In this document: piece by piece, positions 8,664 through 31,148 of the stretch | Position numbering within the stretch: position 1 is the stretch's first letter | How the letters are laid out: each line of letters starts with the position of its first letter | NCBI GenBank assembly: GCA_021777755.1 | Contig: JAJYDE010000042.1 | Location: 1-36,137, forward strand | DNA length: 36,137 nt | Origin: Deltaproteobacteria bacterium | GTDB taxonomy: Bacteria > Desulfobacterota > Syntrophobacteria > Syntrophobacterales > Syntrophobacteraceae | Direction: 5' to 3' | Position numbers and translations under genes: made by a program | The notes under the pieces: model-generated | Told to the model about the DNA's origin: nothing | The model's database searches: none | Seen by the model: only the letters and a program-made list of their open reading frames with translations

Positions 8664-11399
8664 TTAACAAAAATTCCGCCACTCCGATTTCGCAGCCTCT
8701 GAAAACAGCTCGGGCCATGTGGACAGGAGATAATTAATCTCCTCGTGGCGACTCTGAACCAACTTGTCGATTCTTGCATCCAGGAGTTCGTCGAGCAGCC
8801 GGCGATAAATGGGGCCGGGGGGTACCCCCATTGCCTTCAGATCCTTTCCCTTCAACTCGGTTCGGGTATTCCTGTACCTGTGGAAAAAATAGCTCACAGC
8901 TTTTCGGATCGCTTCCTTTTCGGCTCTTCCCATGAGGAAAAGCAATTCCTCGGCCCTGAACGGTAGAAGCACCCGGTAGACTTCACTGGGTTTTCGCCTG
9001 GACAGATCGGGAAAAAAAGACTTGAGCAACCTGCCGGTGTGTTCCAGGGTCCAGAGCAGCCGGTCGCGCTGGTTTTCGGATAAAAGGAGCCGGTCGCACG
9101 CCTTGACCACTTGTTCGCGGGCAAGGTTTGAAAAAAGCCCGAGAAGGTATACCTGCCATCGTTCGAGCGGTTCGTCAAGAAAACTCAGCCGATACCAGGA
9201 AATGACCTCTCGCAGCCTGCCGAAGATCTCCTCCATTTTCCTGTCGAAATTGATTTGGGCGGACAGCGCGGCCATGACACCGAAGTCGGCCATTCTGCGA
9301 AGTGCCGGCAAGGGATCGTCTTCTTCCAAAATGAGCGCTGTTTCATGAAAAAGGCGTCGGCCCCCGAGCTTTTCAATGAGCCCCATGCGCACCGCATTAC
9401 GAATGAGCGAGGCGGTCTGCTTTCCCAGTCGGAAGCCGAAGCGCTGCTCGAACCGAATGGCCCTGAGAATCCGGGTCGGGTCTTCGATAAGGCTGAGGTT
9501 GTGAAGGACCCGAATGATTTTGTCTTTTATATCGCGCTGGCCGTTGAAAAAATCTATCAGCTCACCGAACTCGTCGGGGTTTAAGGCGATAGCCAGGGTG
9601 TTTATCGTAAAATCCCTGCGGTAGAGATCCATTTTAAGCGAGCTGAATTCGACGATGGGCAGGGCCGCCGGGTGCTGATAGTATTCGAACCTTGCCGAAG
9701 CGACATCGACGGTCTGCCCGTCGGGAAAGACCAGCATCGCCGTGCTGAATTTTCTGTGCAGCTTGATCTTGACCTTGTATTTTTCCGAAAAAGCCCTGGC
9801 GAATTCGATCGCGTTTCCCTCGACCACGATGTCCAGGTCGAAATTGGGGCAGCGAAGGAGCAGATCGCGGACAAAGCCGCCCACCGCAAAAGCGCGAAAT
9901 CCCAGGTTTTCAGCAAGCTGCCCGAATTCTTTGAGCATTCCGATAAGACTACGGGGAAGCTGTTCGGAGAGCACCGAGCGGATGCTTTTCCTCTTAGACC
10001 AGTGGATCTGTGAGTACTCGCCGGCGGGCGGCCTTTGCTCGCTGTGGTCGCTGCGCATCAAATCCAGCAGATCGCGCCGGGTTATAACACCCAGCACTTT
10101 CCCCTCGCCCACCACGGGCAGAATGCGCTGATGGAGTTCGACCAGGAAGGTCTGGATTTCCACAAGGCCAGCTTCGGGGCTTACAGAGGCAAAATCGGTA
10201 TTCATGAATTCAGCCACGGTCTGCTTCTGGAGACCGTGGAAAAGGGCTTTTTCGAGCACCTGCCGGGTGATCAGTCCAACCAGGATGTCGTTTTCAAGCA
10301 CCGGCATCGCGTTAATGTTGTAGCGCACCATGGTGAGGTGGGCCTCGGCGATTTCCACCGCTGGTTCGGTATGAATCGCGGGACTGGTCATGAGGTTTTC
10401 GGCGGTCGGATAGGGATGGATGTGCCGGCGGAGCACATCGACGAGTTTTTCTTCGGTCTGTACGAGGGTCAAATCCTTTATGCTCGCGGAGGCCGCGGTC
10501 GCATGCCCGCCTCCCCCGAAGATCGAGGCAACCGTTGCAACGTTTACCTCGGGAAGCCGACTCCTGGCCACCAGGTAGACCCGGTCGTCCATGCACGCAA
10601 GGGCGAACACCACGTCGAGGCTCTCGATATCGCGCAACTTGTGGACAAGAACGGCGAAATCTCCCACGTACCTGTCAACCGACACGGAAGTCAGACACAC
10701 CTCCACGCCGTTGACGTTGATTTTTTTGGCCGACTGAATCAATTCGTTCAGCAGTGTGATCTGTTCGGCGCTCAGTTCCTGGCTCACCATGTCGGAGACC
10801 ACGTTCAGATTGGCCCCGGATTTTAGCAAAAAGGCGGCGGCCTCGAAATCCTCGGGCGTGGTGCTGCTGAAGGTAAAAGACCCGGTGTCCTCAAAGATGC
10901 CAAGGCTCATGATGGTGGCCTCTTCCGAAGAGACCTCGATGCCGCGCTCCATGAAAAGCCCGGTGAGAAGAGTCACCGTCGAACCCACGTTTTTTACAAT
11001 CGAAAGATCCGCTTTCACGTCGTCTTCGGCATCGGGATGGTGATCGTAGACATGCACCTCCAGGCCGGGCTTTTTGAGAATATCGACAAACTTGCCGATT
11101 CGGGACGCTTGTCGCGTGTCAACCAGAATGAGCCGGGTAACCTCTTCGACCTCGATGTCTCGAAGGCGGGTGAAACCGTAGATATAAACCGTGGACTTGA
11201 TGAAGTATTCCCGGAGAGTACGTTCCTGGGAGCCGGGAAATACCAGAAGGGCTCCGGGATAGAGCTTTTTTGCCGCAATCATCGATCCCATTGCGTCAAA
11301 GTCGGCGTTTATGTGGGTGGTAATGACTTCCATGGCACTCATTTCCGGCCGGACTGTTCCCGCCCCCCGGCCGTTGACTTCCGTTTGTCCGCTGCTCAT
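8664..11399 (-). CDS. DHH phosphoesterase - CBS pair - tRNA nucleotidyltransferase fusion
   Basis: A 911-residue multidomain protein. It has an N-terminal DHH domain (HINADFDAMGS at 29-39, LVDTR at 92-96, DHH at 119-121), a DHHA1 GGGGHATAA motif (295-303), two CBS domains (about 333-450) and a class II poly(A) polymerase/CCA-adding domain (GGFVRD at 507-512, DLD at 521-523, then RRDFTINTLA and RILRAIRFEQRFGF). The head carries metal-dependent phosphoesterase motifs and the tail adds nucleotides to tRNA or RNA ends. CBS pairs usually sense adenine nucleotides. The fusion is a known architecture in this phylum. The ATG at 11399 overlaps the xer stop (ATGA); a 74-residue extension upstream would run through xer and is rejected. 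Confidence 0.92.
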   Translation of the reverse strand: MSSGQTEVNGRGAGTVRPEMSAMEVITTHINADFDAMGSMIAAKKLYPGALLVFPGSQERTLREYFIKSTVYIYGFTRLRDIEVEEVTRLILVDTRQASRIGKFVDILKKPGLEVHVYDHHPDAEDDVKADLSIVKNVGSTVTLLTGLFMERGIEVSSEEATIMSLGIFEDTGSFTFSSTTPEDFEAAAFLLKSGANLNVVSDMVSQELSAEQITLLNELIQSAKKINVNGVEVCLTSVSVDRYVGDFAVLVHKLRDIESLDVVFALACMDDRVYLVARSRLPEVNVATVASIFGGGGHATAASASIKDLTLVQTEEKLVDVLRRHIHPYPTAENLMTSPAIHTEPAVEIAEAHLTMVRYNINAMPVLENDILVGLITRQVLEKALFHGLQKQTVAEFMNTDFASVSPEAGLVEIQTFLVELHQRILPVVGEGKVLGVITRRDLLDLMRSDHSEQRPPAGEYSQIHWSKRKSIRSVLSEQLPRSLIGMLKEFGQLAENLGFRAFAVGGFVRDLLLRCPNFDLDIVVEGNAIEFARAFSEKYKVKIKLHRKFSTAMLVFPDGQTVDVASARFEYYQHPAALPIVEFSSLKMDLYRRDFTINTLAIALNPDEFGELIDFFNGQRDIKDKIIRVLHNLSLIEDPTRILRAIRFEQRFGFRLGKQTASLIRNAVRMGLIEKLGGRRLFHETALILEEDDPLPALRRMADFGVMAALSAQINFDRKMEEIFGRLREVISWYRLSFLDEPLERWQVYLLGLFSNLAREQVVKACDRLLLSENQRDRLLWTLEHTGRLLKSFFPDLSRRKPSEVYRVLLPFRAEELLFLMGRAEKEAIRKAVSYFFHRYRNTRTELKGKDLKAMGVPPGPIYRRLLDELLDARIDKLVQSRHEEINYLLSTWPELFSEAAKSEWRNFC

Positions 11400-12280
11400 G
11401 GCCTCGGGTGATACCGGGAGTGTATCTCTTTTAGGCGCTCCCTGGCCACATGGGTGTAAATCTGGGTCGTCGAAATATCGGAGTGGCCGAGCATTATCTG
11501 CAAAGACCGAAGATCCGCGCCGTTTTCCAGAAGGTGTGTGGCGAACGAATGCCTCAGCATGTGCGGAGTGATGTTGACCGCGATACCGGCTTTTAGCGCA
11601 CAGGTTTTGATAATCTTCCAAACCCCCTGCCTGGAAATCCCCTCACCGCGGGAGTTTAAAAAGATCTGCGCGGCAAAGCCGCCTTTCAACAGAAGGCGCC
11701 GTGCGCTTTGCAGGTAATCTCTCAGCCACTGCGCGGCAATTTCCCCCATGGGCACAAGCCGCTCCTTGTCACCCTTTCCATGCACTCTCACGTAGCCGGG
11801 GTCGAGCGCGACCTGGCTCACCCGCAACTCGGAGAGTTCGCTCACCCTCAGGCCGCATGCGTAGAGCAGTTCGAACATGGCCCGGTCTCTCAGGCCCAGG
11901 GGCTTGGAGACATCGGGGCCGGCGAGCAACGCCCCGATCTGGGCCGAGGTCAGCGTTTTGGGCAGCTGAGGGCCAAGTTTGGGGAAATGGACCAGTGAGG
12001 CGGGGTTGGAACCGATATGGCCCGTCTTCAGCAAAAATCCGAAAAAGGACCGAAGCGCGGCCAGCCTTCGAGCCCTGGAGCGGGCGCAAAGCGATATCCC
12101 CATACTTTGAATATACCCGCTTATGCTGGTTTGGCAAACCTCCCGCCAATTCGAAAGGCCCGATTCCTTCAAATATGCGCTGAAATGGGCGAGATCGGCC
12201 GAATAGGCCGCGATCGTGTTGGCACTAAGTCCTCGCTCGACCGCCAGGTGAATCAAAAAGAGGTCGATGTGCTTTTCCAT
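11396..12280 (-). CDS. XerC/XerD-type tyrosine recombinase
   Basis: A 294-residue recombinase with an N-terminal SAM-like core-binding domain (1-90) and a full catalytic set: R145 in LLYACGLRVSELS, K169 or K172 in HGKGDKERL, H240 and R243 in TPHMLRHSFATH, H266 in LGHSDISTTQIYTH, and nucleophile Y275. Length and motifs fit the chromosomal dimer-resolution recombinases; operon position suggests XerD, but XerC cannot be excluded. It is a housekeeping gene, unlike the integrase at the left edge. The ATG at 12280 lies 17 nt after the carboxyltransferase stop. Confidence 0.9.
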   Translation of the reverse strand: MEKHIDLFLIHLAVERGLSANTIAAYSADLAHFSAYLKESGLSNWREVCQTSISGYIQSMGISLCARSRARRLAALRSFFGFLLKTGHIGSNPASLVHFPKLGPQLPKTLTSAQIGALLAGPDVSKPLGLRDRAMFELLYACGLRVSELSELRVSQVALDPGYVRVHGKGDKERLVPMGEIAAQWLRDYLQSARRLLLKGGFAAQIFLNSRGEGISRQGVWKIIKTCALKAGIAVNITPHMLRHSFATHLLENGADLRSLQIMLGHSDISTTQIYTHVARERLKEIHSRYHPRP

Positions 12281-12297: not shown

Positions 12298-13944
12298 TTA
12301 ATCACCGCCCTTCTGCGTCTTGTATGTCTGGAAGTGGTAGTCGACCAGAAGTGAGGTCTGGACCCCGTCGGCTGTCTTTCGGGTGGAAATCAGATCGATA
12401 TTGTGGGTCTTGCCTGCCTCATCGGCAAAGGAGATTCGCGTGCCGTCGGGAAACCCCCCTTTATGAAACCACACCTCGGGGGGAAGCAGCCATGTCTTCC
12501 CGAAGCGCTCCTCGAACTTCATGAACTCCAGGGCGTCCCTTGGAAATTGCAAATAGATGCAAAGCTCTTCATTTGTCGAGAGGCGCTTGAGCTTGGATTC
12601 GAGCTGGAGGCGCCGGGCTTTGAAGTCTTCATCGGCCAGGTCCTGAAGACCGCCTTCATCGGCCAGGATTTCATCCCACCCCTTGCCGTCCGCCCTGCCG
12701 CTTTCGAGCACCTTTTTGAAAATCCATTCGGGAGGATCGTAGAAGGGAAACGGTCCGTAGCGACCGAGCAGCAGCCGCTTCAAGTCGTCGGAGGGCTTTT
12801 CGTAGCGACCGTTTAGCACATTGCTCATGGCCGTTGCCCAGAGAAGCTGGCTACCGGGCGTCACCACCCATATGTTTCCCAATTCCCTGCCAACCTGGAT
12901 CACTTCATTGAAAAGCTCGTGGGCGCGTTCAAGAAGGCCGGCCTTTTCGGCCTGTTCCATGGCCATCCGGAGAGCCCCCCCCGGCAGCTTGTGGCGCTTC
13001 ACGGTCGGATCGAATCCGTGAAAGGAGCCTGTGAATTCATCATAGAGGCGTCGCTCACGCCGCAGGATATCGGAGGCGTCCAGCACCGGGGCGATGCTCA
13101 ACCCTGGGGTCTTGAAGCCGTAATCGCGAAGATTCTGAATGGCGCTCAAGGCCGGCGTCTGGCTGTAGCTGCCGCCAAAACCATGATCGGCAACCTCGAC
13201 GATCTTTACACCCTCCTGCACCGCGGCCATCAGGCGGGCCAGATCGTTTCCGTCCGTGTTATGGCCGTGGTAGGAGATCAAAAGGGAGGGAAATCTTTTC
13301 CGGATGGCGCCAACCAGTTCCGCGATGCGCGCCGGGGAGCCCAGGGCCGAATGATTCTTGATGCACAAGACGATGTTTTCGCCAAGAAGCGATAAAACCT
13401 CCTCGACTTTGCCCAGGTAAAAATCATCGGTATGTCCTTCCCCCGTGCTGAAGCAGATGCAGGGCATGAGAAGCCTGCCGGCTTCCTTGACCGCATTTGC
13501 CGCGACAACCAGATTGGGAATGTAGTTCATGCAATCGTACATTCTCCAGACGTCCACGTATTTGGAAAAAAGCCTCACCGTCATTTCCACGACGTTATCG
13601 GGGTAGGGACGATAGCCGAAAAGATGTTTCCCCCTGCAAAGCCCCTGGATCAGGGTATTGGGCATCGCCTTGCGAACCAGCCTGAGCTTTTCGAAGGGAT
13701 TGACCTGCTTTTTTATGAGATCCATGTGCATCGTGGCCCCGCCGAATATCTCAAAGGCGAAATATCCCGTGGCGTCCCGATAAGGAGCGACCTTGAGGGT
13801 CGTTTGAGGCATGATCCGGCACATGTAGTCGGACTGGGAAAGGTCGCGCTCGTTGTTGGTGAGGAACACCCCCGGAGTTTTGCGCAAAAAATCCAGGATT
13901 TCCGCAGTCCGCATCTGTGGTGAAACTCTTTGTCGCTCAGCCAT
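12298..13944 (-). CDS. Carboxyltransferase subunit, pyruvate carboxylase/transcarboxylase 5S-like (divergent, no biotin domain)
   Basis: A 548-residue protein alignable by eye to the carboxyltransferase domain of pyruvate carboxylase and oxaloacetate decarboxylase alpha. Kept residues include R33-D34, R104 in LCRGKHLFGY, K196 (the carbamylated-Lys position, CIKN), metal ligands H226 and H228 in YHGHNT, and T362 in VTPGSQ. Nearby motifs differ from classical enzymes: NERDLSQS replaces TFRDAHQS, Asn follows K196 instead of Asp, and DHGFGGSYSQT replaces the usual TAVASMSG-type loop. There is no biotin domain or MKM motif at the C-terminus. The product could act on pyruvate or another keto-acid. 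The ATG at 13944 follows GGAG. It lies 43 nt downstream of the biotin carboxylase gene. Confidence 0.82.
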   Translation of the reverse strand: MAERQRVSPQMRTAEILDFLRKTPGVFLTNNERDLSQSDYMCRIMPQTTLKVAPYRDATGYFAFEIFGGATMHMDLIKKQVNPFEKLRLVRKAMPNTLIQGLCRGKHLFGYRPYPDNVVEMTVRLFSKYVDVWRMYDCMNYIPNLVVAANAVKEAGRLLMPCICFSTGEGHTDDFYLGKVEEVLSLLGENIVLCIKNHSALGSPARIAELVGAIRKRFPSLLISYHGHNTDGNDLARLMAAVQEGVKIVEVADHGFGGSYSQTPALSAIQNLRDYGFKTPGLSIAPVLDASDILRRERRLYDEFTGSFHGFDPTVKRHKLPGGALRMAMEQAEKAGLLERAHELFNEVIQVGRELGNIWVVTPGSQLLWATAMSNVLNGRYEKPSDDLKRLLLGRYGPFPFYDPPEWIFKKVLESGRADGKGWDEILADEGGLQDLADEDFKARRLQLESKLKRLSTNEELCIYLQFPRDALEFMKFEERFGKTWLLPPEVWFHKGGFPDGTRISFADEAGKTHNIDLISTRKTADGVQTSLLVDYHFQTYKTQKGGD

Positions 13945-13987
13945 CTTGCAAAGCTCCTACAAGCTTGATTTTCCGGGGTCGTGGCGC

Positions 13988-15421
13988 TCAACTGTAAGGG
14001 TTGTAGCCGTAGGCGTTTATCTCTGCCACAAGGCTTGCCAGTTTGCCAATCGGGGGGACTTCCTCCTGGTAGTCCAGGAGCCGCGGATGTGTTTCTATAT
14101 AGGATGTATCGAAATCCTGGTTGATAAAATCGGCATCCGTCACGATCTGCTTGTAATAGGGGATGGTGGTCTTTACGCCCGCTATGAGAAAACTGTCCAA
14201 GGATCGGCGCAGACGGTCCACGGCCTCTTTCCAGGTAAATCCGTAAACGGTCAGTTTGCACAGCATGGAATCATAGTAGCGCGGAATTTCATACCCCTGA
14301 TAGACCGCACCGTCCATTCGGGTTCCATGGCCTCCCGGGGACTGGTAGATTTCTATCAGCCCGGGGTTGGGCATAAAATTGTTTTTCGGATCTTCGGCGG
14401 TTATCCTCAACTCTATGGCCGCTCCCCGAAACGATACGTCTTCCTGGGTCACCGAAAGGGGGCTTCCGGCGGCCACGAGAAGCTGTTCGCGCACGATATC
14501 AATGCCCGTGATGACCTCCGTTACGGTATGCTCGACCTGTATCCGGGTGTTAACCTCCAGAAAGTAATAATTGTCTTCCTGGTCGAGCAAAAATTCCACC
14601 GTCCCCGCGCTCAAATAGTTGCAGGCCCTTGCCGCCTGGACGGCGGTGCGGCAAATTTTCTCCGTCAGATAGTCGGGCAGAAAGGCCGGGGCGATTTCGA
14701 TCATCTTTTGATGCCGCCGCTGTATCGAACAGTTCCTCGTCCCCATATGGATGACATTGCCGTGCCGATCGGCCAGAATTTGGACCTCGATGTGCCTGGG
14801 GTTGGTGAGCCCCTTTTCCAGATAGACATCGCCATTTCCGAAGGCCATCTTGGCTTCCGAGCGCCCGACTTCGATAAACCTTTCCAGTTCGCTCCTGTTC
14901 TGGGCGACCCGGATCCCTCTGCCTCCGCCTCCGGCAACCGCCTTGACCATTATGGGGAAACGATGCTTTTCGGCAAACTCGGCTGCCAGCCGCTTGCCCT
15001 CGTCTCCCGCGGGCAGCACCGAGGTCCCGGGGATCGAGGGGATCCCCGCCTCGGACATGACCCGGCGGGCTATCACCTTGCTGCCCATGTCGATGATGAC
15101 CTGCGGGGGAGGGCCAACGAAGACCAGGCCGGCTTCGGTGCACTGTTTGGGAAATGCGGGATTTTCGGCCAGAAAGCCGTACCCCGGGTGTATGGCTTCA
15201 GCCCCGGTTCTCTGGGCGGCCTGGATGATGCGTTCAATGTTCAGATAGTCGCGCCTCGGGCCGCTGCCGATGCAAACCGCCTCATCGGCGCGCATGATGT
15301 GCATCGAGGTCTTGTCCGTTTCCTCGTAGACCGCAACGGTCTTTATTCCCAATTCCTGGGCCGACCGCATGATGCGTATTGCGATCTCACCCCTGTTTGC
15401 CACAAGCAGCTTCTTAAACAT
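13988..15421 (-). CDS. Biotin carboxylase subunit (acetyl-CoA/pyruvate carboxylase type)
   Basis: A 477-residue ATP-grasp enzyme that carboxylates biotin with ATP and bicarbonate. It begins MFKKLLVANRGEIAIRIM. The Gly-rich ATP loop AVAGGGGRGIRV is at 161-172, K239 lies in RRHQKMIE, and E289 and R293 in EVNTRIQVEHTVTE match metal and biotin-site positions. It stops after the biotin carboxylase C-domain with no fused carrier domain. The ATG at 15421 is preferred (GGAG 10 nt upstream); a GTG two codons earlier is too close to the ribosome site. As first gene of the operon it is followed by a carboxyltransferase, so the pair probably forms one carboxylase, with the biotin carrier encoded elsewhere. 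Confidence 0.9.
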   Translation of the reverse strand: MFKKLLVANRGEIAIRIMRSAQELGIKTVAVYEETDKTSMHIMRADEAVCIGSGPRRDYLNIERIIQAAQRTGAEAIHPGYGFLAENPAFPKQCTEAGLVFVGPPPQVIIDMGSKVIARRVMSEAGIPSIPGTSVLPAGDEGKRLAAEFAEKHRFPIMVKAVAGGGGRGIRVAQNRSELERFIEVGRSEAKMAFGNGDVYLEKGLTNPRHIEVQILADRHGNVIHMGTRNCSIQRRHQKMIEIAPAFLPDYLTEKICRTAVQAARACNYLSAGTVEFLLDQEDNYYFLEVNTRIQVEHTVTEVITGIDIVREQLLVAAGSPLSVTQEDVSFRGAAIELRITAEDPKNNFMPNPGLIEIYQSPGGHGTRMDGAVYQGYEIPRYYDSMLCKLTVYGFTWKEAVDRLRRSLDSFLIAGVKTTIPYYKQIVTDADFINQDFDTSYIETHPRLLDYQEEVPPIGKLASLVAEINAYGYNPYS

Positions 15422-15586
15422 CGACACACTTCTCCGTTGCGGGTTTTCTCAAAGGCCTGCCGCCATAACGACGGGCAGCCGCCAGAGGCGGGAAAGAGCG
15501 CCGCCCCGCGGGGCAGGATGGAAAAAGCCCGTGAGCGTTGAACCATATTGATTTTTTTTGCAAAGACTTTCAGCCCGAAGCCGAAA

Positions 15587-25165: not shown

Positions 25166-26116
25166 ATGATAGAAGCCGAAGGACTGACAAAATTTTATGG
25201 CCCGAGAGGGGCCATAAAGGATGTTTCCTTTCAAGTCGAAAAGGGTGAAGTGGTCGGCTTTCTTGGCCCCAACGGGGCTGGTAAATCCACCACCATACGT
25301 ATTCTTACCTGCTATATTCCTCCGTCGTCGGGCACGGCGACCGTCGAGGGACTCGACATTCTTGAGGACTCGCTTCGGATCAGGCAAACGATCGGCTACC
25401 TGCCCGAAAGCGTTCCGCTCTACAATGAACTGACGGTGGATCGATTTCTTCGTTTTGCCGCCGGGGCCAAGGGAGTCGGGGCAAAGAGGATCGGCGCGGA
25501 GATAAGCCGTGTGGTCTCGACCTGCGGCCTGGAAAAGGTGTCCAACAGGATTATCGGCAATCTTTCGAAGGGCTTCAAGCAGCGTGTGGGTCTTGCCCAG
25601 GCGCTTTTAAACAACCCGTCGGTTCTCATCCTCGATGAACCCACCATAGGGCTCGATCCGACTCAGATCATCGAAATCCGGCGTATCATCGAGGAACTGC
25701 GCGAAGACAGGACAATTCTTCTAAGCAGCCATATCCTGCCCGAGGTGGCCCAGATTTGCAAAAGGGTCGTGATCATCAACAAAGGGCAAATCGTTGCTAC
25801 CGACAGCCCGGCAAACCTCACCAGCCAACTGCAGAAGACATCGACCATCGTGCTTGAACTGAGCGGACCGCACGAGGAGTTCACCCGGGCTGTTGAAAAC
25901 TTGCCGGGGGTGCAGAAAGTCCTGCGCACGAGCAATGGAACGAGCAAGTTCCAGATAGAAACGGACCCCACCGTGGATATGCGCCCCGATATTGCGGCCC
26001 TCGCGGTGCGCAAGGGATGCGGACTTCTTGAGTTGCGAACCTTGCAACTGAGCCTGGAAGAGATATTCATGCAGCTTGTCACCGAGGAATCGACCCAGGA
26101 GGGAGCCGAGTCATGA
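25166..26116 (+). CDS. ABC transporter ATP-binding protein (GldA-like)
   Basis: A 316-residue ATPase with Walker A GPNGAGKST (34-42), signature LSKGF at 133-137 (a variant of LSGGQ), and Walker B VLILDEPT (153-160) followed by IGLDP. A C-terminal region beyond the ATPase core is typical of CcmA/GldA-type exporters. It powers the permease encoded by the next gene, which overlaps by ATGA. With the GldG-like and DUF4340 genes it forms the conserved cluster annotated as gliding-motility-type ABC transport. Gliding itself is not implied; the substrate is unknown. Confidence 0.92.
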   Translation: MIEAEGLTKFYGPRGAIKDVSFQVEKGEVVGFLGPNGAGKSTTIRILTCYIPPSSGTATVEGLDILEDSLRIRQTIGYLPESVPLYNELTVDRFLRFAAGAKGVGAKRIGAEISRVVSTCGLEKVSNRIIGNLSKGFKQRVGLAQALLNNPSVLILDEPTIGLDPTQIIEIRRIIEELREDRTILLSSHILPEVAQICKRVVIINKGQIVATDSPANLTSQLQKTSTIVLELSGPHEEFTRAVENLPGVQKVLRTSNGTSKFQIETDPTVDMRPDIAALAVRKGCGLLELRTLQLSLEEIFMQLVTEESTQEGAES

Positions 26117-26886
26117 AAGGTTTTTGGCCCGTTTATAAAAAAGAACTCTACGAAATGTTCATGTCGCGCATCTTTTATGCCTTGGCCTTCTTTTTCCTGC
26201 TTTTGTGCGGAGTTTTTTTCTACCTCATCCTGCAACAGATCGTGATGTTTAGCTACCAGGTTGCGCAAAACCCGCAGATCGCTCAAAACGTCAGCATGCC
26301 CGAGTTGTTCATGCGCTCCTTTTTGTGGAACATCAGCGTGATCATGCTGTTCGTGGCACCTCTTCTGACCATGAGGCTCTATGCTGAAGAGCGAAAAAAC
26401 GGGACCATGGAACTGCTCTACACCTATCCGGTAACCGATCTTGGAACCCTTGCGGGCAAGTTCGCCGCCTGCATGACAACCTTTGCCGTGCTCCTTGCCG
26501 CCACACTTCCGGGCGTCATCATGCTGGCCTCGATCGCCGGATCGTCCTGGAAGCCCATTGTTTGCGGCTACGGGGGGCTTGTGCTTCTGGGCAGCGCTTT
26601 TATCTCCCTGGGCACTTTCGCTTCCACCCTCACCAGCAATCAGATCGTGGCCGCCATCGTCACCTTCGGGGTGCTGCTGATGCTCTGGTTTATAGGCGAC
26701 GCCAAATCGGCGGTCAATCCGCCTGTTGTAGGAAACATCCTGGGATATCTTTCGGTATCCGATCATTTCAAGGGGATGGTCAAAGGACTGCTCGATTCGA
26801 GGGATATCGTCTATTACGGGGCTTTTTCCGCCCTTTTCCTGTTCCTCACCTTGAGGCAGATGAGCTCTTATCGCTGGAGGGGTTAA
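26113..26886 (+). CDS. ABC-2 type permease (GldF-like)
   Basis: A 257-residue polytopic membrane protein. Hydrophobic segments lie near residues 17-40, 75-95, 110-140, 145-170, 175-195 and 230-250. The motif RLYAEERKNGTMELLYTYPVTD is the standard ABC-2 permease loop between early membrane helices. The start overlaps the ATPase stop (ATGA). It is followed by the GldG-like gene after 110 bp. Confidence 0.88.
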   Translation: MKGFWPVYKKELYEMFMSRIFYALAFFFLLLCGVFFYLILQQIVMFSYQVAQNPQIAQNVSMPELFMRSFLWNISVIMLFVAPLLTMRLYAEERKNGTMELLYTYPVTDLGTLAGKFAACMTTFAVLLAATLPGVIMLASIAGSSWKPIVCGYGGLVLLGSAFISLGTFASTLTSNQIVAAIVTFGVLLMLWFIGDAKSAVNPPVVGNILGYLSVSDHFKGMVKGLLDSRDIVYYGAFSALFLFLTLRQMSSYRWRG

Positions 26887-26996
26887 CCGGGCCGCCGAGG
26901 CAGTTCTCCCGCCCGTTTTTTCAACCGGCGGGCTCCAAACCTTCCCTCGGTCCCGGAATCCATCATAAGAAACCAAAGAACGACGGAGAAATGAAA

Positions 26997-28412
26997 ATGC
27001 CGGCAAATAGCGGCCGCAAACTCAAATGGGCATATGGAGCCAACACCGTGGTCTCCACTGTAATTTTCTTCATGATCCTGGTTTTTGTCATCCTCATCGC
27101 CCAGCAAAACCCCTGGCGGGTCGATCTTACCGAAATGGGGGCTTTCAGCCTTTCCCAGCAAACCCGAAAGATTCTTAAAACCATAAACAGGCCCGTTTCC
27201 ATCAAGGTTTTCATCGCCGGCAGCGGCCAGGGGGCCCAGGGCAAGGGCAAGATCAGGGACCTTTTAAAAACCTACTGCTATTACAGCAAGAACATTACAT
27301 ACCGGTTCATCGACCCGGATACGCATCCGCGAATGACCCGAAGCTACGGCATAAAAACCTACGGAACAATCGTACTGGAAGGCTACGGGAAAAAGCAGTC
27401 GGTCCTTGCGGCCGATGAGCAGGACATTACAAACGCCCTTCTCAAGCTTAAAAGCACCGTGCGGCAGAAGATATACTTTCTGACCGGACATGGGGAACAT
27501 TCCCTTACGGCCAATGGAAATGAGAGCTATTCGGTCGCCAAAACCGCCCTTGGTAAAGACCTCTACAAGGTGGGCGAATTAAACCTGCTGCAGGCAAGCG
27601 ATGTTCCGGCCGACGCGGCCGCCCTCATCATCGCCGGGCCTCAGAAACCGATTCCCGAGCGCGAACAGAAGATACTGGCCGGCTACCTGGCCCGCGGAGG
27701 CTCGGTCTTCCTGCTCCTCGACCCTCTCACCCCGACTGGCATGACCAGCTTCTTAAAGGGCTACGGCATCGATGTGGGCAGCGACGTGGTCGTTGACCGC
27801 CTGAGCCGCCTTTTCGGCGCAAGCCCCACCGTCCCCGTGGTGATGCAATACGGGCAAAGCGAAATCACTCGCGATTTCACCGAGCCTACTTTCTTCCCCT
27901 ACGCCAGGTCGGTTGTCCCTATGAAAACGCCACCCAAGGGGATCGAATTGCAAACGATCGCGGCCACTTCAGCCAGCGCGTGGGCCGACCGCAATATAGA
28001 CGAACTCAAACAGGGCAAGGCCACCTTCGATAAATCAAGAGATCTTCCCGGCCCCGTTCCCCTGGTGGTCATGGCCTCCATCAAAACCGCGCCCAAGCCT
28101 GATGCGGCTGGCAAGCAACTCGTTGCCGCTCAACCATCGAAGGCGGGAAAACTCGTTGTTGCGGGCAACTCCTTTTTCCCCGTCAATTCAAATTTCAATC
28201 AATACGGAAACGGGGATCTGTTCTTGAACACGGTGAATTATCTGGCCAACAGGACCGATCTGATCACCATCCAGCGGCCGAACGTGAGCAAACCCCTGAT
28301 GCTTACCCGCGCCCAGGGAGTATCGTTTATCTGGACGGTTATCATACTGATCCCGCTCGCCGTGCTGGTTTCCGGAATTGCGGTCTCCAGAATGAGGAGG
28401 TCTCAGAGATGA
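26997..28412 (+). CDS. GldG-like ABC auxiliary protein
   Basis: A 471-residue protein with an N-terminal membrane anchor (about residues 14-37), a large extracytoplasmic domain of the GldG/DUF4350 or IFT52-like type (DLTEMGAFSLSQQTRKIL, YFLTGHGEHSL, GGSVFLLLDPL), and a C-terminal membrane segment (VSFIWTVIILIPLAVLVSG). The ATG at 26997 is chosen because GGAG is 8 nt upstream; an ATG two codons earlier is too close. A much longer frame extends upstream into the permease gene but is not credible. It overlaps the next gene by ATGA. Confidence 0.88.
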   Translation: MPANSGRKLKWAYGANTVVSTVIFFMILVFVILIAQQNPWRVDLTEMGAFSLSQQTRKILKTINRPVSIKVFIAGSGQGAQGKGKIRDLLKTYCYYSKNITYRFIDPDTHPRMTRSYGIKTYGTIVLEGYGKKQSVLAADEQDITNALLKLKSTVRQKIYFLTGHGEHSLTANGNESYSVAKTALGKDLYKVGELNLLQASDVPADAAALIIAGPQKPIPEREQKILAGYLARGGSVFLLLDPLTPTGMTSFLKGYGIDVGSDVVVDRLSRLFGASPTVPVVMQYGQSEITRDFTEPTFFPYARSVVPMKTPPKGIELQTIAATSASAWADRNIDELKQGKATFDKSRDLPGPVPLVVMASIKTAPKPDAAGKQLVAAQPSKAGKLVVAGNSFFPVNSNFNQYGNGDLFLNTVNYLANRTDLITIQRPNVSKPLMLTRAQGVSFIWTVIILIPLAVLVSGIAVSRMRRSQR

Positions 28413-29788
28413 AATTGCGGACCACCGCCATATATTTTCTCATCCTGCTGGTGATCGGAGCGGTTTACGGCGCGATGAGGATGGAAAAGCAAAAAACGGC
28501 AACGAAAGAAAAGTTGGCCAGGCGCGTTTTTACCTTTTCACCCGATAGTGTCACCCAAATTGAGATAGAGTCGGGGCAACATAAGCTTATCAGCCTTAAA
28601 AAGGCCGGTAAGTGGACCATTTCCACTCCGATCGTCTCCGAAGTGGATAATACCCAACTCACCGGTTTTCTTTCCACTCTCCAAAATGTCGAAATGGAGC
28701 GAAAGATCGGCAAGCCCTCGGGAGACCTCAAGGCTTTCGGACTGGACAAGCCTTCTTTGGTCGTGCGGTTTTTGACCGCGGGCAAATGGCTGGAACTCGA
28801 CGCCGGGGCAAAAAATCCGGTTGGGACCGACAGATACGCGAGGGCTGGCAAAAGCGGTGAAATCTTCGACATATCCAGCCAGGCTTATGACGATTTGAAC
28901 AAGAACCTGACCGCGCTCAGGCGAAAGGAGCTTTTCTCCTGGAAACCCGGTCAGGTCAAAGCCTTCCAGATTACTTGGAAAAACGGCGACCAGGTGGCCG
29001 TTGCGCGCCAGGGAGACACTGGCCTGTGGAAGTCTAAAACCCAGCCGCAGCTGAAAATCAGCTCCGATAAGGTCGATAATTTCCTCGAAGGGCTTCACTG
29101 GCTTCGGGCCGCGAATTTTCCGCCCGAGAGCGCGAAACCGACTTCGCCCGATATAGCCGTCAACATTGAACTACGAGGCGGCAAAACCGCCCAACTTCAG
29201 GCTCAACTGCCCGGCCCCGGGGAAAAGCAGGCTCTTGCCACTTCCTCCGAACTTCCTTGGCCCGTGCTGCTTCCAACCTACTTTCTGTCATCCCTGCCGC
29301 ACACGGTGGACGCGCTCGTAGACAAATCCCTTCTGTCCTCCCGGCCTTCGGACATAAAGAAGATCTCATGGAAAACGCAGGGCACGAGCGCGGAGCTTGC
29401 TCGCATGGCAAACAACCACTGGGGGATAGTAGAGGGCGCCTCCCCCCCGAAGTCCATCAAGAATCCCTGGGCCGCCGAGAGTCTTTTGGCCGCCTTGCAC
29501 AACACGGAGTATATCGGAGCGGCCAGTCCGGCAGCGGCGGCGCCCTCCGGCGCTTCGAACTCGCTTACCCTGGTGGACACTTTCGGCAAAAAGACTTCCC
29601 TTACCTGGAATGCGGTCGAGGCTAAAAATGCGGGGCCCGTGGACGCCTGGCTCGAAAAGGACGGCTCCTTGTCGCAGCTGCGGATAAATTCCAAGGACAT
29701 TCTGCGAATCGATTCGTTGCTGAGCTCGCTCAACCCGGTCGAGAAGGCTGCGGCGCCAGTAAAGAACGCGGCGAGCGCGAAAAAATGA
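28409..29788 (+). CDS. DUF4340-type membrane-anchored protein
   Basis: A 459-residue protein with an N-terminal hydrophobic anchor (about 6-24) and repeated beta-rich modules of DUF4340 (WTISTPIVSEVDNTQLTGFL, KAFGLDKPSLVV, SLLSSRPSDIKKISW). The domain commonly follows the GldG-like gene. The role is unknown; an extracytoplasmic accessory to the ABC system is likely. The start overlaps the preceding stop by ATGA, suggesting translational coupling. The C-terminus is Ala/Lys-rich. Confidence 0.82.
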   Translation: MKLRTTAIYFLILLVIGAVYGAMRMEKQKTATKEKLARRVFTFSPDSVTQIEIESGQHKLISLKKAGKWTISTPIVSEVDNTQLTGFLSTLQNVEMERKIGKPSGDLKAFGLDKPSLVVRFLTAGKWLELDAGAKNPVGTDRYARAGKSGEIFDISSQAYDDLNKNLTALRRKELFSWKPGQVKAFQITWKNGDQVAVARQGDTGLWKSKTQPQLKISSDKVDNFLEGLHWLRAANFPPESAKPTSPDIAVNIELRGGKTAQLQAQLPGPGEKQALATSSELPWPVLLPTYFLSSLPHTVDALVDKSLLSSRPSDIKKISWKTQGTSAELARMANNHWGIVEGASPPKSIKNPWAAESLLAALHNTEYIGAASPAAAAPSGASNSLTLVDTFGKKTSLTWNAVEAKNAGPVDAWLEKDGSLSQLRINSKDILRIDSLLSSLNPVEKAAAPVKNAASAKK

Positions 29789-29819
29789 TCACAGCTCAAG
29801 CGGAGGCCCGGCGTTATCC

Positions 29820-31148
29820 ATGACTGCTGTAAGCCTTGAAAACCTGGTGGCTCAGCAAAAAAACCTTCAAAGTATTCTCGACAACATGCTCGAAGGCATA
29901 ATAGCCCACGATACGGACCGGCGGATATTGTTCTTCAACCGTGCGGCGGAAAAGATCACGGGCTATTGCCGCGAGGAGGTTCTCGGCCGGGATTGCCACT
30001 TGGTCTTCGGCTCCCCGTTTTGCGGGAAGAAATGTTCCTTTTGCAATCGCCCCATGGAAAGGCTCGATCATCACTCATATACCTTGAACATCTGCACCCG
30101 CTCGGGGGATCTGCGCCGCATAGAAATGTCGGTTACCGGCATGTACGACGACGAAGGGGCCTTTGTCGGCGTACTGGCGGCATTCCGGGATCTCACCGAG
30201 ATTTTGAGCCTGCAACTGCGCCTTGGCGAACTCACGAGCTTTTCCGGCATTGTGGGCAAAGACCGAAAGATGATCGAAGTCTACGATCAGATCCGAAACC
30301 TTTCGGCAACCGATTACCCGGTGCATATTACCGGGGAGACCGGGACCGGTAAGGAACTGGTTGCCGCCGCAGTGCACAACGAAAGCGCCCGGGCCGGCGG
30401 GCCGTTTGTGCCGGTAAACTGCGGAGCGCTGCCCGAAGGCCTCCTTGAGAGTGAACTCTTCGGACATGTCAAGGGCGCCTTCTCGGGGGCCATCCGCGAT
30501 AAGAAGGGCCGATTCGAGCTGGCCGACGGAGGCACGCTATTTCTCGACGAAGTGGCCGAACTGCCCCGGCACATGCAGGTAAAACTCCTGCGGGTCTTGC
30601 AATCGGGTTCGTTTGAAAGGGTTGGCGGGGAAAAGACCATTACGACCGATGTGCGCATCATAAGCGCCACCAACCGCAATCTCAAACGTCTCATGGAGCG
30701 GGAGGAATTCCGGGAAGACCTCTATTACCGGCTAAACGTTGTCCCGGTAAGAATACCGGCCCTGCGCGAGCGTAAAAACGACATTCCGCTCCTTGCCGCC
30801 TTTTTTCTCGGTCAGGCGGCCGAGCACGGCCGCAAGGCGGCACGCATCCGCAGTCAAGCCGTCTCCATGATGATGGACTATGGTTGGCCGGGAAACGTGC
30901 GAGAATTGCAAAACGCCATCCATTTCGCCCTGGTCAAGTCGCGCGGCCTCGATATCGAAGCCGATCATCTCCCTTTTGAAATCCGCCAAAACCCCTGTAC
31001 GCCTTCAAAGCCGGGCCCCCGGCCGCTTCTTACCCCGGAAACGGTTGCTTCCGCCATCGCCAGGGCGGGGGGAAATCGCTCGCAGGCGGCCAAACTGCTC
31101 GGAGTGGGCCGCGCAACTCTCTACAGGTTTCTGGAAAAAAAACTATAA
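29820..31148 (+). CDS. Sigma-54-dependent activator with Cys-rich PAS domain
   Basis: A 442-residue Fis-family regulator. The N-terminal PAS domain (about 10-130) has C50, C59, C68, C72, C75 and C92, with spacing CX8CX8CX3CX2C. The AAA+ domain has Walker A GETGTGKE (172-179), the sigma-54 loop as GAFSGA (219-224) rather than GAFTGA, and Walker B GGTLFLDE (237-244). A Fis-type helix-turn-helix ends the protein (GNRSQAAKLLGVGRATLYRFL). It drives transcription from -24/-12 promoters; the cysteines suggest redox or metal sensing. It follows the DUF4340 gene by 31 bp, so it may belong to that operon. I found no good -24/-12 site in the window. Confidence 0.92.
   Translation: MTAVSLENLVAQQKNLQSILDNMLEGIIAHDTDRRILFFNRAAEKITGYCREEVLGRDCHLVFGSPFCGKKCSFCNRPMERLDHHSYTLNICTRSGDLRRIEMSVTGMYDDEGAFVGVLAAFRDLTEILSLQLRLGELTSFSGIVGKDRKMIEVYDQIRNLSATDYPVHITGETGTGKELVAAAVHNESARAGGPFVPVNCGALPEGLLESELFGHVKGAFSGAIRDKKGRFELADGGTLFLDEVAELPRHMQVKLLRVLQSGSFERVGGEKTITTDVRIISATNRNLKRLMEREEFREDLYYRLNVVPVRIPALRERKNDIPLLAAFFLGQAAEHGRKAARIRSQAVSMMMDYGWPGNVRELQNAIHFALVKSRGLDIEADHLPFEIRQNPCTPSKPGPRPLLTPETVASAIARAGGNRSQAAKLLGVGRATLYRFLEKKL

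Follow-up and report, generated by a model that had tools for sequence, protein, structure and literature searches.

A split pyruvate-carboxylase-like enzyme without a biotin carrier in the Syntrophobacteria, probably served by the carrier of a transcarboxylase

Introduction

Textbook pyruvate carboxylases bear their own swinging biotin. The stretch of DNA analysed in this work (the window; 36,137 nucleotides, contig JAJYDE010000042.1 of a member of the Syntrophobacteraceae) carries two adjacent genes on the minus strand, the upstream one for a biotin carboxylase (BC) and the following one for a carboxyltransferase (CT), and neither encodes a biotinyl domain. It is therefore asked which reaction the pair catalyses and where its biotin comes from. 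The preliminary description of this DNA had suggested a carboxylase or transcarboxylase for another keto-acid, with a carrier in trans.

The BC-CT locus

The BC matches the Pfam domains PF00289, PF02786 and PF02785 above cut-off and the CT matches HMGL-like and PYC_OADA, while PF00364, the biotinyl domain, is absent from both (Table 1). The best NCBIfam model of BC and CT alike is the single-chain pyruvate carboxylase, below its curated cut-off; of the 1147 positions of this model, 3-485 and 519-1041 are covered by BC and CT, and the BCCP end is missing. Tested for membership in PycB, OadA or 5S, the CT stays below all NCBIfam cut-offs.

Table 1. Features of the BC-CT locus, in positions of the window
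Feature	Position	Strand	Remarks
Biotin carboxylase (BC) subunit	15427..13988	-	479 aa from GTG; the ATG at 15421 is the start given in the preliminary description
Carboxyltransferase (CT) subunit, pyruvate-carboxylase-like, without biotinyl domain	13944..12298	-	548 aa
RDLSQ (RDxxQS motif), residues 33-37, with Asp34 for the metal and Gln37 for the substrate; the usual His is replaced by Ser36	13834..13848	-	
Lys196 in CIKNHSA, predicted carbamylated metal-bridging lysine	13357..13359	-	from alignment
His226-Gly-His228, metal ligands	13261..13269	-	from alignment; the second is Cys in G006, G191, G166 and G135
Thr362 of VTPGSQ, proton-shuttle threonine (R. etli T882)	12859..12861	-	from alignment
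C-terminal beta domain, residues ~497-545, equal to part of the PYC scaffold (PT) domain	12310..12456	-	from model and alignment
xerD-like recombinase	11396..12280	-	directly 3' of CT

Downstream of the CT are found xerD and then the genes for a CCA-transferase, an M50 protease and TrpRS, and the order BC-CT-xerD-CCA is kept across the taxonomic order, Syntrophobacter fumaroxidans included. As xerD marks the 3' boundary, there is no space for a carrier domain or gene 3' of the CT. No biotinyl domain was detected on the window contig, either by scanning the window for the motif in six frames or by a search for PF00364 over the whole genome, which bears out the earlier statement that neither subunit has such a domain and that no carrier gene is nearby. 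Among 43 carrier-less loci, 41 have a BC next to the CT and two start at a contig end, and none has a 12S or carrier gene beside the CT. OadB and OadG, the partners of the sodium-pumping oxaloacetate decarboxylase, are likewise absent from the CT neighbours named above. That a carrier was overlooked near the genes is ruled out by the genome search for PF00364, by a biotinyl HMM run on the locus flanks (up to 8 kb) and by the six-frame scan. A CT shortened by the assembly is ruled out by the same end in all 43 carrier-less loci and by like frame lengths in 39 genomes. Elsewhere in the window (25166-31148) a PAS sigma-54 activator follows an ABC transporter ATPase and permease with PF09822 and DUF4340 proteins, a gliding/GldFG-like set.

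Active site and structure of the carboxyltransferase

Comparison of 44 carrier-less and 66 fused sequences, the latter being orthologues with a C-terminal biotinyl domain, showed R33, D34, Q37, R104, Y111, D137, K196, H226 and S365 to be invariant, while T362 is Ser in one sequence and H228 is Cys in four. These four (G006, G191, G135 and G166) form the subclade of loci L021-L024, in which the motif YHGCNTDG has Cys for the second metal-ligand His of HxH, perhaps reflecting a change of metal. The carbamylated Lys, the metal His pair and the catalytic Thr were rightly recognised in the preliminary description, since K196, H226, H228 and T362 all align. It had also reported altered substrate-side motifs; the changes are real, but their placement on the substrate side finds no support, the pyruvate- and metal-binding residues R33, D34, Q37, R104 and D137 all being present in the window CT. 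Two of the changes, Ser in place of His in RDxHQS and KN in place of KD, occur without exception in the 44 carrier-less as well as in the 66 fused orthologues and are therefore family traits. The dN/dS ratio of the window CT is about 0.06-0.09 against close relatives, which together with the conserved catalytic residues rules out a decaying remnant.

The AlphaFold2 model of the CT is confident (pLDDT 86.6, pTM 0.88). Among solved structures Foldseek ranks the carboxyltransferase of R. etli PYC first (4mim; TM 0.87, normalised to query length), the model aligning over its full length to the CT and PT domains of PYC. According to the model a scaffold (PT) domain is present after the CT, as in pyruvate carboxylase. 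In the alignment carrier-less CTs stop after the last strand of this domain, which is the scaffold/biotinyl junction; in the fused relatives a helix (SKEEIEDLA) leads on from there to the biotinyl domain. In predicted fold and length the protein is in effect the CT of a pyruvate carboxylase minus BC and BCCP.

Phylogeny and loss of the carrier domain

Genome and contig searches revealed two kinds of orthologues, one of about 550 aa that lacks a C-terminal biotinyl domain and one of about 640-660 aa that has it. The fused ones are found in other Desulfobacterota, are about 50% identical to the window CT and carry EAMKM in 65 of 66 cases by motif. A maximum-likelihood tree was built from 91 CT cores, including 40 carrier-less and 26 fused rows, with PYC, PycB, OadA, 5S and the second CTs of the window's own genome (C5 and C60, see below) as references; a 2-oxoglutarate carboxylase sequence is not among them. 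The 40 carrier-less rows form one clade (support 98) with the 26 fused rows beside it (support 89), and a group of about 38% identity, also with biotinyl domain, lies outside both (support 98). The whole family is set apart from PYC, PycB, OadA, 5S and C5/C60 with support 100, read with a long-branch warning at this deepest split, so that a nesting of the CT in ordinary PycB, which would have spoken against the preliminary description, is not observed. What was observed is the other finding it had named against itself, a carrier domain fused in close orthologues. Absence of the carrier is thus a lineage-specific loss and not a primary property of the family and, as the carrier-less sequences are one clade, it was lost once, in the ancestor of the Syntrophobacteria and relatives.

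Biotinyl domains in the window genome and its relatives

The window genome (4.2 Mb, 95.8% complete) has five PF00364 domains: two on lipoyl E2 proteins, two on CT-biotinyl proteins (C5 and C60) and one on a BC-BCCP protein (C44). It contains two BCs, the window BC and C44, and three PF01039 carboxyltransferases. The best models for C5/C60 are PycB and OadA, the PycB score being 472 bits as against 173 bits for the window CT. Both adjoin a malate dehydrogenase, and C60 has a 2-oxoacid:ferredoxin oxidoreductase gamma subunit as a further neighbour, these neighbours being named from reading their sequences; another CT, C100, is MmdA/12S-like. Two such malate dehydrogenase and CT-biotinyl pairs, one followed by the gamma subunit (L126 3039-6038 and L127 15-3642), make the propionate pathway appear partly duplicated.

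In G006, G191, G166 and G036 the CT-biotinyl gene adjoins a 12S/MmdA-like CT. This neighbour, and the linkage to malate dehydrogenase elsewhere, identify the CT-biotinyl protein as a 5S-1.3S fusion of the methylmalonyl-CoA:oxaloacetate transcarboxylase. The window CT itself is ruled out as transcarboxylase 5S, given that the transcarboxylase genes are elsewhere (C5/C60 for 5S-1.3S, C100 for 12S), that it belongs to a separate clade and that it has a BC partner. The transcarboxylase proposed in the preliminary description is therefore to be sought not at this locus but in C5/C60, beside malate dehydrogenase, and in C100.

The carrier-less CT is present in all 39 genomes examined of the window's order, and in 37 of them, all but G256 and G264, it is accompanied by a second CT of C5/C60 type. 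A CT-biotinyl protein is also present in each of the four genomes from outside the order that have the carrier-less CT (G006, G191, G166 and G135). The distribution is thus complementary: a separate CT-biotinyl protein occurs in 41 of 43 genomes with carrier-less CT versus at most two of 23 with fused CT (G036 and G077), for which Fisher's p = 7e-13 is descriptive only and not independent, because the contrast reflects one evolutionary event. Of the 43 genomes with carrier-less CT, 32 have no BC besides the window-type one. In G006, which has a single PF01039 CT, the CT-biotinyl protein carries the only PF00364 domain of the genome.

The orphan biotin-carrier search suggested in the preliminary description uncovered free carriers of 72-133 aa in several members of the order, in glutaconyl-CoA-decarboxylase-like clusters, and none by PF00364 search in the genomes of S. 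fumaroxidans and G006. In seven genomes (L142-L148; G037, G233, G106, G073, G211, G187 and G162) genes for a CaiB-like protein, a pump-like membrane subunit, an acyl-CoA dehydrogenase, a PF01039 protein and, in most, a small carrier are found together; this looks like a sodium-pumping glutaconyl-CoA-decarboxylase type with acyl-CoA dehydrogenase.

The genome of S. fumaroxidans MPOB (G276; 4,990,251 bases, PMC3570798) is complete in one contig. Its CT-biotinyl gene (555410-557437) adjoins malate dehydrogenase, the linkage published for Sfum_0461 and Sfum_0460. The orthologue of the window CT lies at 821-823 kb; being the only other such CT found, and at a position which fits the number, it should be Sfum_0676, the second "pyruvate carboxyltransferase" of PMC8691401. 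Proteomics has reported both Sfum_0461 and Sfum_0676, each annotated as pyruvate carboxyltransferase (PMC8691401). The genome encodes a single BC and three CTs, among the latter one PF01039 (12S-type) CT, Sfum_1223 (PMC8691401). Of its three PF00364 domains two are lipoyl (ETDK) and one is biotinyl (EAMKM), the latter on Sfum_0461, and BC consequently has exactly one detectable candidate carrier in this complete genome.

Source of the biotin and substrate of the enzyme

The only plausible biotin arm for the window CT sits on the propionate-pathway transcarboxylase, and the two carboxylation systems therefore probably share one biotin. We consider it fairly probable, from gene content and conservation, that BC charges the transcarboxylase biotin in trans and that the window CT moves the carboxyl group to pyruvate; the carrier inventory makes the carrier in trans of the preliminary description the best reading. 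BC would use ATP and bicarbonate to carboxylate biotin on the flexible C-terminal biotinyl domain of 5S-1.3S (C5 and C60; Sfum_0461). The window CT would then form oxaloacetate by transferring this carboxyl group to pyruvate, a step that could also run backwards. Anaplerosis and the propionate pathway would in this way be coupled via one biotin pool. The linker of the carrier donor is long and rich in Pro/Ala (48-64%) and could let the 1.3S-type domain travel; as the linker of Klebsiella OadA is similar (46% Pro/Ala), this argument is weak and unspecific.

Several observations count against a shared carrier. The distribution rests on one loss in one clade, and 5S-1.3S is undetected in G256 and in G264, although the latter is 94% complete. 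Should BC load the biotin of 5S-1.3S, oxaloacetate could already be made by the 5S CT. A second CT looks redundant in that case, yet it is kept in 39 of 39 genomes of the order. The simplest answer would be that the window CT provides a dedicated anaplerotic site coupled to BC, with the scaffold domain holding it together. In a rather unlikely alternative, BC and 5S-1.3S could be the real two-subunit pyruvate (and propionyl-CoA) carboxylase, with the window CT serving mainly as a docking scaffold for BC and carrier or catalysing a minor reaction only. Such a role would agree with the lack of any other biotin carboxylase in most of these genomes, with the CT of C5/C60, which matches best the PycB model and the solved PycB 5ks8, and with the scaffold-type C-terminal domain kept by the window CT. 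Conserved catalytic residues (among 44 sequences, one has S for T and four have C for H) and purifying selection would, however, be needless for a pure scaffold.

The small free carriers of some members of the order could also serve instead. A carrier of this kind, of about 70-180 aa and with its gene at another locus (the glutaconyl-CoA-decarboxylase-like clusters being an example), or else the BC-BCCP on C44 in the window's own genome, seems to us very improbable, since free carriers are absent from S. fumaroxidans and G006, both of which keep the carrier-less CT; a very divergent carrier outside PF00364 may also exist. As to the substrate, it is quite improbable that the CT acts on another 2-oxo acid, such as 2-oxoglutarate, with the same borrowed carrier. 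The conserved differences from PYC, PycB and OadA around the active site (RDLSQS, KNH, NTDG) point in this direction, but the known pyruvate- and metal-binding residues are all unchanged, and the fused relatives, in many genomes without other biotinyl enzyme of this type, show the same differences. With the residues of the pyruvate pocket invariant and the fold that of a pyruvate carboxylase CT with scaffold, the other keto-acid of the preliminary description is not needed.

The shared carrier can be extended to a wider scheme, slightly more doubtful than not, for S. fumaroxidans and relatives: one BC would charge the single biotinyl domain on the propionate transcarboxylase, and this domain would feed three CTs (12S, 5S and the window CT). 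Carboxylation of pyruvate, the exchange between propionyl-CoA and methylmalonyl-CoA and even the supply of malonyl-CoA would then run via one biotin. No AccD-type CT for malonyl-CoA was found in S. fumaroxidans and relatives.

Comparison with known systems

By sequence the window pair is a split pyruvate-carboxylase-like enzyme and not the propionate transcarboxylase. With the single-chain PYC of R. etli, S. aureus and L. monocytogenes it shares the order BC, CT, scaffold (PT-like), the CT fold and identical catalytic residues; it differs in being split in two genes, in a CT of only 25-30% identity in a separate clade and in the absence of the biotinyl domain (EAMKM). PycA/PycB (5ks8) likewise has BC and CT on separate chains, but PycB carries a biotinyl domain and does not group with the window CT in the tree. 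The methylmalonyl-CoA:oxaloacetate transcarboxylase (12S, 5S, 1.3S) has the same CT fold, occurs in the same genomes and is the likely carrier donor; in contrast to the window pair it needs no BC and is encoded by C5/C60 and C100. The BC and CT-biotinyl pairs of Desulfobulbales, Syntrophales and Desulfofervidales are direct orthologues in the same two-gene order, which unlike the window CT keep the biotinyl domain after a short Pro/Ala-poor linker. One carrier serving several CTs is a feature of the actinobacterial acyl-CoA carboxylases, in which AccA3/AccBC works with several beta subunits; their carrier is fused to BC, whereas the carrier proposed here is fused to another CT.

We found no account of a carrier-less pyruvate carboxylase or of sharing with a transcarboxylase in the open-access literature, most subscription papers being outside the scope of the search. 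The window CT represents a natural lineage that has given up its own carrier and apparently depends on the carrier of a catabolic enzyme. If this is true, carboxylation driven by ATP would be linked to the energy-poor propionate pathway, and the synthesis of oxaloacetate, and possibly malonyl-CoA, in a syntroph with one BC and one biotinyl domain would be explained.

Three further genomes have a divergent BC followed by an AccD/AccA-like CT of 756-772 aa (L168 2756-6480 in G195, L169 3170-6816 in G038 and L170 3744-7429 in G017). The PF00364 search of G195, G038 and G017 gave no biotinyl domain beyond that on the fused pyruvate-carboxylase-type CT, assuming that a divergent AccB was not missed. 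Their acetyl-CoA carboxylase may borrow the carrier of the fused CT, and carrier sharing may be older and commoner in the phylum. Beside the acetyl-CoA carboxylase genes of G038 (L169 6762-7469) is the gene for a 236-aa protein with an apparent biotinyl/lipoyl-type repeat lacking the modified lysine motif.
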